Shown piece after piece: positions 5,423-42,555 of a stretch of 43,906 bases of DNA (its first letter is position 1; the number at the start of each line of letters is the position of its first letter). The stretch spans positions 1 through 43,906 of the IMG/VR virus record IMGVR_UViG_3300028573_000026; one strand, written 5' to 3'. A program made the translations under genes and the position numbers. The notes under the pieces are model-generated. The model was not told the DNA's origin. It did not search any database and saw only the letters and a list, made by a program, of their open reading frames with translations. Source of the DNA: a virus.

Positions 5423-5647
5423 CTAGGTGGTCGTCGGCTCTGCCGGGGCAGCGGCGGGCGCCGGGGCCTGATCGGGCAGCGGAGTCGGGGACTTCGCGGC
5501 CTCGAGCGCGTCGGCCACGCCGGCCAGGCGCGTGATCGCGGCGCCGATCTGCTCGTCCGAAGAGGGCGCCTGGAACACGGCCAGGATCGCCTTCACGTCG
5601 GCCGATACGCGATCGATCACGGCGTTGAGGTTGTCGATGGCAGACAT
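5423..5647 (-). CDS. Small helical protein with Pro/Ala tail, 74 aa
   Basis: Residues 1-50 (SAIDNLNAVIDRVSADVKAI and IGAAITRLAGVADALEA) form an amphipathic helical hairpin, followed by a PAPAAAPAEPTTT tail. Small proteins of this form (a coiled coil plus a low-complexity tail) are common near phage tail and lysis genes, with no known role. The start at 5647 has AAGGAAG about 6 nt upstream. An in-frame ATG at 5713 overlaps the previous stop and would add 22 residues, but its extension does not fit the pattern. Confidence 0.65.
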   Translation of the reverse strand: MSAIDNLNAVIDRVSADVKAILAVFQAPSSDEQIGAAITRLAGVADALEAAKSPTPLPDQAPAPAAAPAEPTTT

Positions 5648-5712
5648 GATCGTCTTCCTTTCGTGTTGTGCATGGAACAGGTGCTGTTCGATGCGGTGGA
5701 GAAGCTCGAGCA

Positions 5713-26117: not shown

Positions 26118-26356
26118 GCGGGATTGCTATCGAGCCAGTCGAGCGCGGCAGCCGCTGTCTCCACGAACAGATGCCACACGGGCACGTTATCGCGTGAAAT
26201 CCAAGCTCTCACTGGTGCCCGCACCAGTTCAGGCTGGCCGAGCGAGACGAGCGTGTTTTCGTCTGGCATGGGTGGACCTCCCCAGCCCTCAATCGGCTTC
26301 CAGCCGGAAGCACGGGCTAGGTGACGAGCGAGATCTTCGATGCGCTTGTCGTTCAT
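26114..26356 (-). CDS. Small protein between terminase and portal, 80 aa
   Basis: The start and stop both overlap neighbours by 4 nt (ATGA). The sequence is soluble with helical ends (RIEDLARHLARASGWKP; TAAAALDWLDSNPA) and a Trp-containing centre (VRAWISRDNVPVWHLF). I recognise no family. It may be a packaging accessory, but only its position supports that. Confidence 0.6.
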   Translation of the reverse strand: MNDKRIEDLARHLARASGWKPIEGWGGPPMPDENTLVSLGQPELVRAPVRAWISRDNVPVWHLFVETAAAALDWLDSNPA

Positions 26357-27735
26357 GCCGCCATCCAGCTTGTTCCGCCGCTCCGGCGAGGCCGCTGATA
26401 GGCGCGGCTGCCGGCCGGTGCGCTGTCATCGCCAAAGCCCATCGCGAACGTCCTCAGCGCATCGGCGCCATGCGAAGACCAATCGTGCAACGGCTTGGCC
26501 TTGAAGATGCGGTTCACTTCGTCCCACTCGCGCCGGTAAGCCTGCAGCGCGTTCAGCCCGCGCTCGCAGCGCTTCTCGTCGATCCAGGCCCGGGCGAGCA
26601 TCCGCCGGGTTGCGTTGATCCCGTCCATGACGTGCGCGACCGGCACCACGCGCGGGTTGATGCCGAGGGTGCGCAGCGTCTGCGCCCGGCTCAGGCCCGT
26701 CGTGAGCTCGTGGTGCTCCACATCGTGCGGGAACCAGTGCTCGGCGCCGTTGTTGCCGTCGGCATAGCGCCAGTTGTGCTCGCGCTTCTTCTCGTCGAGC
26801 ACCTTGGCGTAGTGGTCGAGGCCGGCGCCGCCTTCTTCGTGGTAGTCGACGACACGCACCTCGCGGCCCACGACCTGAATGAACCAGATCGCGGTTGCGT
26901 CGGTGTAGCCAAGATCCCAGGCCGTATGCACAGGCACCATGCGGTCGATCGGAATGACGCCGATGCGCTTTTCCTCGCGCGCCAAGCGAAGCTCTTCGGC
27001 GTAGAACGCGCCGAGGACTGCAGCGTCGAAGCTGCACAGGTACTCTTGCTCGTAGAGCGCCCTGCCCTGGTCGGCGCCGAACTGCGCCATGTAGGCGCGG
27101 CGCTCTTCCTCGAGCTGGGCCGCCGAGAACACACCGGTCTTCGTCGCCGGGAGCACCTCGCTGAACCACGTCTCGGGATGCCGCCGGGCATCGTCGAGCA
27201 TCGTCTTGGCGTGGTTGTTGCCGCGAGGTGTCGTGATGAACAGCGCCCAGCCGCCGTTTTCGGCCAGGATCGGCCGCAGGAAGCCCCAGGCCGCCGGATC
27301 GGACAGCGCCCATTCCGAGAAGACGACACCCGCGGGCGGGGAGCCGACCAGCGAGTTGAAGTTGTCGCTGCCGACGAGGTGATACATCGACCCGTTGACG
27401 AAGCGGATCGTCATCTCGTTCTCGCGCGTCGTCGAGCGGAGTTCGTGCGGGAACGCCTCGTCGATGCGGCGCATCCCGGAGTGCGGGTTTACTGCGTCCC
27501 ACACGGCCTTGCGGGCCTGCGTCTGTTGCGGCAGAAGGTGCCAGTACGTCGCCGGCCGCTGCATGGCCGCGATGCACTCCCAGTGCAGGGCGACCTCGTC
27601 CTTGCCCGATCGGCGGTGCCAGATGCACTCAGCACGCTTACCGCCGCCGCGCAGGTACCGCCACAGCGGCAACTGGTAGTCGCGGGCCTGCCAGCCGTTA
27701 GCCGGCAGGATCAGTTCGCGACCGCGCCCAGTCAT
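26353..27735 (-). CDS. terL: Terminase large subunit
   Basis: 460 aa. The ATPase domain has Walker A at 40-47 (HRRSGKDE, K45) and Walker B/catalytic Glu around 136-142 (GVVFSEW, E141), with a coupling motif (LFITTPRGNNHAK). The nuclease domain starts with TAWDLGYTDATAIW (D274, D279). It packages DNA into the prohead and cuts concatemers. The start at 27735 overlaps the small subunit by 38 nt. The compact C-terminal nuclease gives no clear cos versus pac signal by eye. Confidence 0.92.
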   Translation of the reverse strand: MTGRGRELILPANGWQARDYQLPLWRYLRGGGKRAECIWHRRSGKDEVALHWECIAAMQRPATYWHLLPQQTQARKAVWDAVNPHSGMRRIDEAFPHELRSTTRENEMTIRFVNGSMYHLVGSDNFNSLVGSPPAGVVFSEWALSDPAAWGFLRPILAENGGWALFITTPRGNNHAKTMLDDARRHPETWFSEVLPATKTGVFSAAQLEEERRAYMAQFGADQGRALYEQEYLCSFDAAVLGAFYAEELRLAREEKRIGVIPIDRMVPVHTAWDLGYTDATAIWFIQVVGREVRVVDYHEEGGAGLDHYAKVLDEKKREHNWRYADGNNGAEHWFPHDVEHHELTTGLSRAQTLRTLGINPRVVPVAHVMDGINATRRMLARAWIDEKRCERGLNALQAYRREWDEVNRIFKAKPLHDWSSHGADALRTFAMGFGDDSAPAGSRAYQRPRRSGGTSWMAA

Positions 27736-28141
27736 CGACGATCGTCACGGTGATGCCGCCCTTGACCTCGGCCTCGAGCTTGTCGCCGTACTTCTTCGGC
27801 GCGAGCTTGCTCATGAGCCATTTGCGGCTGTCCACCCGGAGCCGAGAGCGGCTGATCCACTCGGTGTTCGGCGACGTGCGCTCGTTGCCGTCCTCGTAGA
27901 CGGTGACGTGCGTGTCCTTCGACGTGTCGTCGGAAATCTCGATGATCTCGTCGGCGAAGCGCTCCATTTGAGCCTCTTTCGCACGCGCGTATTTCTCCCG
28001 GAGATCAGCGTTTTCCGGATCAGCCAGCCAGCGATAGAACATCGACTGGGACGGCATGCCTTCATCGGCGCAGATCTTGCGGACGCTCTCACCGTCCGTG
28101 ATGCGCTGGATGATGAAGTCGGCGGCAGCGGGATAGGCCAT
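27698..28141 (-). CDS. terS: Terminase small subunit
   Basis: 147 aa. The N-terminal helix-turn-helix (FIIQRITDGESVRKICADEG; PSQSMFYRWLADPE) would bind packaging sites. It is followed by a coiled oligomerisation region (YARAKEAQMERFADEIIEI) and the C-terminal element typical of this terminase-S family (RLRVDSRKWLMSKLAPKKYG). Directly upstream of, and overlapping, the large subunit. It should recognise the packaging start near its own gene. Confidence 0.88.
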   Translation of the reverse strand: MAYPAAADFIIQRITDGESVRKICADEGMPSQSMFYRWLADPENADLREKYARAKEAQMERFADEIIEISDDTSKDTHVTVYEDGNERTSPNTEWISRSRLRVDSRKWLMSKLAPKKYGDKLEAEVKGGITVTIVDDWARSRTDPAG

Positions 28142-28149
28142 TCAGTGCC

Positions 28150-28284
28150 TCAGCACTTCCCGCCCTTGCCGGCCTTCATGACGCCGCCCTTGGCCATGGC
28201 GCTGGCGCCCTTCATGGACTGGCCGGTCGAGGCGTTGCCGTCCTTGCCCTTGATGCCGCCCTTGGATTTGGTCGAGGAACCCAT
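28150..28284 (-). CDS. Small Lys/Gly-rich protein, 44 aa
   Basis: Starts MGSSTKSKGG and ends KGGVMKAGKGGKC, a lysine/glycine-repeat basic peptide. AGGAG lies 7 nt before the ATG. It is the first gene after the late promoter/terminator pair and just before the terminase small subunit. KGG-rich small proteins occur near packaging genes of several phages with no known function; DNA binding is plausible from charge alone. Confidence 0.65.
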   Translation of the reverse strand: MGSSTKSKGGIKGKDGNASTGQSMKGASAMAKGGVMKAGKGGKC

Positions 28285-28301: not shown

Positions 28302-28337
28302 AAAACGCAAAACGCCCGCTCGGAAAACCGGCGGGCG
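28302..28337 (-). terminator. Intrinsic terminator between early and late blocks
   Basis: CGCCCGC (28313-28319) pairs with GCGGGCG (28331-28337) and the inner CGG/CCG extends the stem to 10 bp around an AAAA loop with one bulged T. On the minus strand it is followed by TTTTGCGTTTT. It starts about 13 nt after the predicted start site of the promoter at 28357-28385. Confidence 0.9.
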
Positions 28338-28356
28338 CGTCTGTGCAGATTGGCAA

Positions 28357-28385
28357 TCAATAGCCTGTGACTATCGCTACGTCAA
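28357..28385 (-). promoter_or_regulatory. Candidate late promoter (PR'-like)
   Basis: On the minus strand TTGACG (28385-28380), a 17-nt spacer, then TATTGA (28362-28357). The -35 is one base from consensus and the -10 is moderate. The predicted start near 28350 lies immediately before an intrinsic terminator, so unassisted transcripts would be only about 45 nt. It stands directly downstream of two small unassigned early genes and upstream of the terminase and virion block. Confidence 0.55.
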
Positions 28386-28397
28386 GCCGGGCGATCA

Positions 28398-28414
28398 CGG
28401 TCAATCATTGACCG
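28398..28414. promoter_or_regulatory. Perfect 17-bp palindrome upstream of the late promoter
   Basis: CGGTCAAT and ATTGACCG form perfect 8-bp arms around one base. The centre is about 56 bp upstream of the predicted late start, a usual place for an activator dimer. It also overlaps the stop codon of the 102-aa gene (TGA 28403-28401). Confidence 0.5.
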
Positions 28415-28709
28415 GCTCCAGATCGGCGGTGTGACGGGTGCTGTACGAACCATCGCCATCCCACTTGATCCACGCTCTTTCGCCGTCCAGCCCGACCACC
28501 CGAGCGACGCCGCAACCCATCGACACCCTGTCGCCCACCTTGATCGGGCGCGGGATGAAGCGGCCGGCGGCGAGTTCCTTGGCATCCATCCAGTGTGGTG
28601 TGTACTCCACATGGTTACCAAGCACAGCAACGTGTACCATATTGCTGGGTAATACCTCCCTCACCCTCACCCGCAGTTCGATCTCGTCGCCGACGCGGAA
28701 CTTGCTCAT
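28401..28709 (-). CDS. Small beta-barrel protein, 102 aa
   Basis: Pattern FRVGDEIELRVRVREVLPSN, then VKVGDRV-type (IKVGDRVSMGCGVARVVGLD) and RAWIKWDGDGSY suggests two small SH3/Tudor-like barrels, a common nucleic-acid- or protein-binding fold. It lies at the end of the early block, overlaps the 169-aa gene (ATGA) and directly precedes the late promoter. A part in late control is possible by position; I recognise no family. Confidence 0.65.
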   Translation of the reverse strand: MSKFRVGDEIELRVRVREVLPSNMVHVAVLGNHVEYTPHWMDAKELAAGRFIPRPIKVGDRVSMGCGVARVVGLDGERAWIKWDGDGSYSTRHTADLEPVND

Positions 28710-29215
28710 GCTGTTCTCCCCAATCCGAAAAGCTCGACGAGCTTGTCCAGCCCACGGATCAGCGCCCGCTGCTCCTCGACCGTGACCGGATTATCGTAGA
28801 CAGTCACATCGAACACGGCGCGCCGCACTGCCCCGCCGAGGTTGGCGAGGAGGACGAACGCCGTCTGGAACCGCCTGGACACGTCGTCGATGACGGCTTG
28901 ATCCGTGTCGCGCTTCGTCGAGCGGCCGGCGCCTACCTGCCATGAAGGCGACTTCGCGTGCCGCGACGGGATGCCCTTGATCCGATCGTAGGAGCCGACC
29001 AGCTCGCCGAACTTCTTGCCCGCGGCAACCTGCCGATCGGTAAGCACGCCGTTGAGGCGGAGCCTGCCGAGCTCGCTGCCGAGGAGCGGATCGCCGCAGC
29101 CGCGCTTGGCCTGGTCGATGATGCGCCGCACGAGCGTCGGCGGCGTCTCGTTGCGTTCCGGCTTGATCTGACCGCTGGGATAGCGAGATCGGGCAGTGTT
29201 GCGATGACGTGGCAT
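28706..29215 (-). CDS. Unassigned early protein in the Q position, 169 aa
   Basis: Basic N-terminus (RHRNTARSRYPSGQIKPERN), centre PLLGSELGRLRLNGVLTDRQ, then GELVGSYDRI, and a C-terminal helix with VTVEEQRALIRGLDKLVELFG. I have seen this general pattern in alphaproteobacterial prophage proteins without a function. It stands where lambda Q stands, last before the late promoter and terminator, so an antiterminator or late activator is a testable inference. No zinc or polymerase-binding motif was identified. Confidence 0.7.
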   Translation of the reverse strand: MPRHRNTARSRYPSGQIKPERNETPPTLVRRIIDQAKRGCGDPLLGSELGRLRLNGVLTDRQVAAGKKFGELVGSYDRIKGIPSRHAKSPSWQVGAGRSTKRDTDQAVIDDVSRRFQTAFVLLANLGGAVRRAVFDVTVYDNPVTVEEQRALIRGLDKLVELFGLGRTA

Positions 29216-29424
29216 GGTGGCAGCCCCTTCGAGGTTTCAGGATGTTTCCCGCGCGTGGGTACCCCCGCTCTCTTTTCCCTCTAGAATAGGAGAGAGAGAG
29301 AAGAGAGAGGAAGAAACCCAAGGAACCTATAAGCTACTGAAATCACACACATATTTAACCGAGTTCCTTTCCTTTTTCGTCCGGTATGTTCCCGCCAAGC
29401 AACCCGCAGATTTTTCCGATTTTT
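29216..29424. other. AT-richer intergenic segment with purine tract and repeats
   Basis: 209 bp without a convincing gene, well below the genome's GC level. It has a GA-rich tract (29288-29318) and an AT-rich core near 29340-29360 (CACACATATTTAACC). Two copies of GGTTTCTTCCCG lie just inside the end of the primase gene. It could hold a promoter for the 169-aa protein, or an origin. No clear -35/-10 pair is seen. Confidence 0.5.
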
Positions 29425-42289: not shown

Positions 42290-42308
42290 GGGGGTCGGCG
42301 GCGGTCAT
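42120..42308 (-). CDS. Minus-strand alternative frame, 62 aa
   Basis: The ATG overlaps the stop of the XRE gene (ATGA), which fits the minus operon between it and the GapR-like gene. The product is Arg-rich with a weak hydrophobic centre (HWFVGAVYMVGM). Its composition is less protein-like than that of the plus-strand frame. Base composition does not separate the two. Confidence 0.25.
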   Translation of the reverse strand: MTAADPLTEASRQARRQEFRDANLSRKAQLLCGRVLVRLAVRAHWFVGAVYMVGMRLGGRPF

Positions 42309-42520
42309 GCGGCTGCCTCAGATTGCGGGAGCACGAGATCGTTCGGCGTGATCGTGCCGCCCGACCATTCGGCGATCCGGCGCATCAGGTCTGCGCTCGG
42401 GTTGCCCTTGCCGTTCTCAATGCGGGAGAGCGTGGCGGCGCTCGTCATGCCGATGCCGGCGGCCGCTTCGTCGAGCGTCGCTCCGATCGACTGTCGATAG
42501 GCTTTGAGCGGGTGTTCCAT
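42305..42520 (-). CDS. XRE/Cro-like regulator, 71 aa
   Basis: Helix-turn-helix at about residues 12-50 (SIGATLDEAAAGIGMTSAAT; LSRIENGKGNPSADLMRRI), the Cro/CI class, with no dimerisation or LexA-type domain. It is compact enough to be a Cro or a short anti-repressor. Its ATG lies 7 nt after the -10 of the promoter at 42527-42555, so the message is likely leaderless, as for lambda cI. It is transcribed divergently from the other XRE gene. Confidence 0.82.
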   Translation of the reverse strand: MEHPLKAYRQSIGATLDEAAAGIGMTSAATLSRIENGKGNPSADLMRRIAEWSGGTITPNDLVLPQSEAAA

Positions 42521-42526
42521 TCCCTC

Positions 42527-42555
42527 TTATTACGCTAGATGCAAGTTCGCGTCAA
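42527..42555 (-). promoter_or_regulatory. Promoter P1 of the small XRE gene, operator-embedded
   Basis: On the minus strand TTGACG (42555-42550), 17-nt spacer, TAATAA (42532-42527). The spacer is almost entirely one 18-bp operator copy (42533-42550), and a second inverted copy (42557-42574) ends one base before the -35. The predicted start is at or next to the ATG at 42520, so the RNA is leaderless. Confidence 0.75.

Follow-up and report, generated by a model that had tools for sequence, protein, structure and literature searches.

A promoter running straight into a terminator before the terminase genes of a virus contig: a probable late switch worked by a GafZ-like rather than Q-like anti-terminator

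The stretch of DNA analysed here, referred to as the window, is a virus contig of 43,906 bases, the record of which is classed as linear and for which no DNA-level relatives were found among annotated phages. On its minus strand, a gene for a 169-aa protein (28706-29215), located towards the end of the early genes, is followed by a gene for a 102-aa protein (28401-28709), by the -35 and -10 elements of a proposed late promoter (TTGACG at 28380-28385 and TATTGA at 28357-28362, separated by a 17-nt spacer) and by an intrinsic terminator (28302-28338). Beyond the terminator come, in this order, a 44-aa Gly/Lys-rich ORF (28150-28284), the Sf6-type terminase small subunit TerS (27698-28141), the terminase large subunit TerL (26353-27735) and the portal gene. 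The 44-aa ORF begins just 17 nt after the T-rich tail of the terminator, so that no promoter fits between the terminator and this first late ORF. Small Gly/Lys-rich ORFs between terminator and TerS carry a terminal cysteine (GKGGKC, KGKMC, GGGKKC) in the window (28150-28284) and in the contigs L002 and L069. Further upstream, the interval that separates the 169-aa gene from the primase gene (29216-29424) holds a long GA-rich tract (~29287-29314) and the palindrome GGGTACCC.

An earlier note, made on this DNA without database searches, had likened the locus to the late switch PR'-tR' of phage lambda, describing a palindrome, a TTGACG/TATTGA promoter and an immediate terminator just before the terminase and virion genes, with a basal transcript of about 45 nt. 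Its account of the promoter and terminator holds: both promoter elements lie on the minus strand at a spacing of 17 nt, TerS and TerL are identified downstream, with the 44-aa ORF, which that note did not mention, lying in between, and a start predicted from the promoter at about 28350 (minus strand) implies, given the position of the terminator, an RNA that ends after about 45 nt. The terminator, with the sequence GCGCCCGCCGGTTTTCCGAGCGGGCG from 28338, comprises a GC stem and loop (28338-28312) and a T-tract from 28312 on the minus strand; its hairpin, at -21.4 kcal/mol, is the strongest among the three found on this strand, and it folds with a z score of -3.35, a value equalled by 1 of 200 shuffles. 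The 15-bp palindrome GGTCAATGATTGACC is likewise present (28399-28413, with its centre some 56 bp upstream of the predicted start, and overlapping the 102-aa ORF at its stop codon), but its significance did not stand, as inverted repeats of this kind number 26 in the window against about 22.5 expected, and no counterpart was found in L002; at this chance level it is no more than a possible activator site.

The promoter itself combines the -35 element TTGACG with TATTGA, a poor -10 element that matches the consensus at 3 of 6 positions and has a shuffle p of 0.21 in the window alone, and a generic promoter scan of the window did not report it. TTGAC at this distance from a terminator of the window type is found a single time in the window and never in 100 shuffles, and an identical TTGACG-17-TATTGA is found in L069. 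TTGAC occurs at 16 sites on the minus strand of the window, two of which are proposed as promoters (42555 and 28385). The former, TTGAC-17-TAATAA (42527-42555, minus strand), precedes the gene of a 71-aa helix-turn-helix regulator (42305-42520) and is a candidate, and likely, early promoter. Late promoters of other kinds, internal to the late genes, may also be active and are compatible with the data.

The closest relative by TerL among those fetched, L002 (TerL 92%), retains the same series of features, namely a DUF6456-like gene, a homologue of the 102-aa protein, a promoter-terminator cassette, a small ORF that is the positional counterpart of the 44-aa ORF, TerS and TerL. It differs from the window in its TerS and in having an extra ORF that separates the cassette from the 102-aa homologue. 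Its promoter reads TTGACA-N17-TAGAGC, with TTGAC at the place corresponding to that in the window, and the terminator stem and tail are conserved. The stretch from the -35 element to the stem can hardly be aligned between the two, and geometry is therefore the feature conserved between window and L002.

The same geometry recurs elsewhere. Viral contigs were scanned for terminators of the window type with and without an upstream TTGAC, and among 50 non-redundant terminators in phage contigs, 11 carry this pentamer at a distance of 47-58 nt upstream of the stem, against 0.75 expected (mean over 60 pentamer permutations). In several contigs (L064, L067, L014 and L026, and also L022 and L027) the stop codon TGA of the next upstream gene falls inside TTGAC; stop codons do not explain the excess, however, because each of the remaining NTGAN pentamers occurs 0-1 times at that distance. 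In 15 cassettes taken together, TTGAC is followed after 16-18 nt by a -10-like hexamer, with a summed score that 0 of 1000 shuffles equalled. When TerL relatives were picked independently of cassette presence, TTGAC was found 41-60 nt before the stem in 5 of the 8 terminators located within 3 kb upstream of TerL, and in 0 of 13 elsewhere. In bacterial genomes, which served as a control, the TTGAC-to-stem distance is flat over 38-68 nt, as by chance (a first pattern scan of these genomes was too strict and gave 0 matches, and the control is based on a looser pattern). The cassette directly precedes TerS/TerL in L069, L071, L072 and L002, and portal, coat or protease genes instead in L066, L065 and L068 (names read from translated ORFs). 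This recurrence before terminase or other virion genes in many phages, along with the geometry kept in L002, lends support to the PR'-tR'-like reading.

Several additional features of the cassettes were recorded. L066 carries two near-identical copies (1704-1799 and 5565-5660), the second of which precedes a portal-like gene. The pentamer AAATC lies between the -35 and -10 elements in 8 of 20 cassettes (L015, L026, L065, L066, L067, L073, L170 and L181), within the context CTAAATCTGGT in L026 and L181 and CTAAAAATCTGGT in L015, while in 2000 shuffles no pentamer reached 7; this makes it a candidate loading element. AAATC is absent from the spacer of the window, in which no binding element was identified. 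In a search for a sigma-dependent pause element, -10-like hexamers were not enriched downstream of the start in 19 cassettes (616 of 2000 shuffles were equally good).

With respect to the regulator, the earlier note had observed that the 169-aa and 102-aa proteins occupy the position of Q without matching a Q family, and had suggested a new type. The lack of a Q match is borne out for both proteins by Pfam: neither has a match at an E-value threshold of 0.001, and raising it to 10 brings up a sub-threshold TOBE_2 hit to the 102-aa protein and nothing else. The 169-aa protein, having no Pfam match, has none to the Q families. The 169-aa protein is nevertheless not of a wholly new type. It weakly matches phrog_15385, a phage family of uncharacterised function, and although it has no direct match to PF20057 (DUF6456), the family of GafA and GafZ, 2 of 17 relatives (set A2) match that family weakly (best E 0.0015). 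Starting from phage members only, profile searches arrive at DUF6456 proteins, and in hhalign comparisons a phage-only profile aligned to a DUF6456-only alignment with P 91-96%, pairwise E ranging from 1e-6 to 3e-9, against P ≤0.12% for reversed controls; a seed profile of 8 members, the smallest used, was not yet sufficient to reach DUF6456 (P 1.4%). In a left-out test, a profile of DUF6456 and phage members from which the window and other test proteins had been removed recovered the 169-aa protein at 6.7e-15 and that of L064 at 2.6e-25, with 0 reversed hits. By single-sequence hhalign, the proteins of L014 and L002 score P 98% and P 94%, respectively, against a maximum P of 0.95% for 80 random ORFs. 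Genes of the DUF6456-like family thus supported adjoin cassettes in L064 and L014; in this clean test, with its random-ORF control, such a gene beside the cassette was unsupported in L026, L033, L034 and L067, and clean family membership found no support for the last three, so that a recognisable DUF6456-like gene does not accompany every cassette. Because an extended iterative search wandered off to a response regulator and to ECF sigma factors, the left-out test was used in its place, and members that depend on the iterative search are not claimed.

Structural modelling points in the same direction. The model of the 169-aa protein has pLDDT >90 across its helical core, and a Foldseek search of viral models retrieved phage proteins at prob 1.00, one of them annotated as DUF6456 (E 2.9e-3), with unnamed phage proteins reaching E values down to 1.9e-5; against the PDB, there was no match at E 0.001. 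In a second structural comparison, sigma factors occupied ranks 1, 3 and 4 at weak scores (Z 3.5-4.6), their region 4 aligning with residues 91-169, which suggests a weak agreement of this modelled region with the sigma-like helix-turn-helix of GafZ. Profile-profile and structure searches together place the 169-aa protein in the DUF6456/GafA/GafZ superfamily. As for the 102-aa protein, the first half of its model is poor and the second, better-modelled half resembles SH3/Tudor/KOW barrels. Outside the window the only homologue found is that of L002, wider searches of annotated phages and viral contigs having returned no relatives, and since it is found only there beside the window it is the weaker candidate for the regulator in the Q position; it may assist the switch, but not as a shared part of it.

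The superfamily offers a precedent for such a function. It has been shown that BLAST with Rhodobacter GafA retrieves DUF6456 proteins (PMC9638019), and that Caulobacter GafZ, which is homologous to the C-terminal part of GafA and has a sigma-like helix-turn-helix, is a transcription anti-terminator whose binding needs a palindrome between the -10 and -35 elements of the gene-transfer-agent promoter and with which RNA polymerase passes a terminator located beyond the first gene (PMC11150451). In the literature searched, DUF6456 appears by name only in work on gene transfer agents. The system described here shares with GafA/GafZ the superfamily, a target made up of late genes for packaging and capsid, the need to bypass a terminator and, weakly, a sigma-like helix-turn-helix region in the 169-aa model. 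It differs in that the terminator begins about 12 nt after the predicted start, whereas in Caulobacter it follows the first gene and consists of 150-bp repeats, and in that the window spacer shows no counterpart of the GafZ binding element. With the lambdoid PR'-tR' and Q systems (lambda, 21 and 82) it has in common a late-regulator gene and a promoter closely followed by an intrinsic terminator before the late genes; unlike them, it pairs a protein outside the Pfam Q families with a predicted terminated RNA of that short length and no enriched pause element. Another comparison is AlpA of Pseudomonas aeruginosa, described (PMC9371919) as a promoter-loaded anti-terminator with which polymerase bypasses a downstream intrinsic terminator, though not in a phage late operon; it was compared in sequence with the 169-aa protein by Pfam scan, with no match.

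Taken together, it is probable that the locus is a late switch similar to PR'-tR' of lambda but worked by a GafZ-like, not a Q-like, anti-terminator. Computation supports it well as regards architecture and homology, through the spacing of promoter and terminator and how often this spacing recurs, the order of the genes and the membership of the 169-aa protein in the superfamily; from these we infer the start site, the loading site and anti-termination itself. Weighing against this reading are the weak -10 element, the lack of a Pfam match for the 169-aa protein alone, cassettes that have no recognisable DUF6456-like gene beside them or that precede portal, coat or protease genes, relatives of the protein in Rhizobium phages without such a cassette, and the negative results for a pause element and for a binding element in the window. 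RNA polymerase would start near 28350 and halt at the terminator without entering the terminase and virion genes, releasing the short RNA. The 169-aa protein, presumably made late in the early phase, would load onto the polymerase at or near the promoter, probably through its sigma-region-4-like helix-turn-helix, and then carry it through the terminator into the late genes, which the pair of promoter-terminator and 169-aa protein would thus hold back until needed.

It could be argued that the terminator merely ends the early transcript, TTGAC being incidental or a minor promoter and the late genes being transcribed from other promoters or by read-through. This explanation, which we consider unlikely, draws on the location of the terminator directly after the last early gene, on the weak -10 element of the window, on the random appearance of TTGAC before such terminators in bacterial genomes and on L243, L245 and L252, where a terminator directly follows a DUF6456-like gene without a TTGAC promoter. 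It does not account for a TTGAC-to-stem spacing that is far from random in phage contigs and specific to terminators ahead of TerL, nor for the preservation of this spacing in L002 despite the inserted ORF, and the short gap before the first late ORF leaves no room for another promoter.

A PR'-tR'-like switch might also be operated by a different protein, the anti-terminator being the SH3-like 102-aa protein or another phage product and the 169-aa protein activating initiation or playing some other role. The 102-aa gene does adjoin the promoter, the better half of its product resembles barrels of the SH3/Tudor/KOW kind, and GafA has been reported to act via the omega subunit of RNA polymerase (PMC9638019); on the other hand, the 102-aa protein was found only in the window and L002 whereas cassettes are widespread, and DUF6456-like genes adjoin cassettes in unrelated contigs, which makes this arrangement quite improbable. 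Even less credence, close to none, is given to the unit being a small-RNA gene whose product acts in trans or on late mRNAs: a promoter and terminator this close do have the form of a minimal small-RNA gene, with a hairpin that folds better than shuffles, but the leader from start to stem is short and hardly alignable with that of L002, a known RNA family was sought in Rfam without a match for the unit, and what is common to phages is the geometry and not the RNA sequence.

Extending the GafZ-like switch beyond the window, phages, many of those of Alphaproteobacteria included, may carry an anti-terminator of the GafZ superfamily together with a promoter and immediate terminator as a late switch equivalent to, but not derived from, lambda Q and PR'-tR', in which case GafA and GafZ would be a domesticated phage late regulator; we regard the case for and against this generalization as evenly balanced. 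If true, it would provide a function and a testable site for the uncharacterised phage family phrog_15385, extend late anti-termination well beyond lambdoid phages and suggest an origin for the gene-transfer-agent regulator. The promoter-terminator geometry can moreover be used for finding late promoters in uncultivated phage genomes.

Distant relatives of the 169-aa protein were also found by tblastn in Rhizobium phages, where the gene again lies shortly before the terminase block. No recognisable TTGAC-terminator cassette occurs at that place in these phages, and protein family and cassette are therefore associated but not inseparable. Several Rhizobium phages share a conserved sequence about 60 nt long, GAGGCGAATGCCAGAGAGACTACATCGGCTTATGGATGTCTCTCCATTCCTCGTCGCC, located after the DUF6456-like gene and ahead of the terminase block (approximately 6690-6750 in L059, 7435-7495 in L060 and 6694-6755 in L061), which gave no Rfam match, no tRNA being found in L059-L061, and which likewise follows the DUF6456-like gene in L246 and L250. 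This stretch could be the Rhizobium-phage counterpart of the switch.
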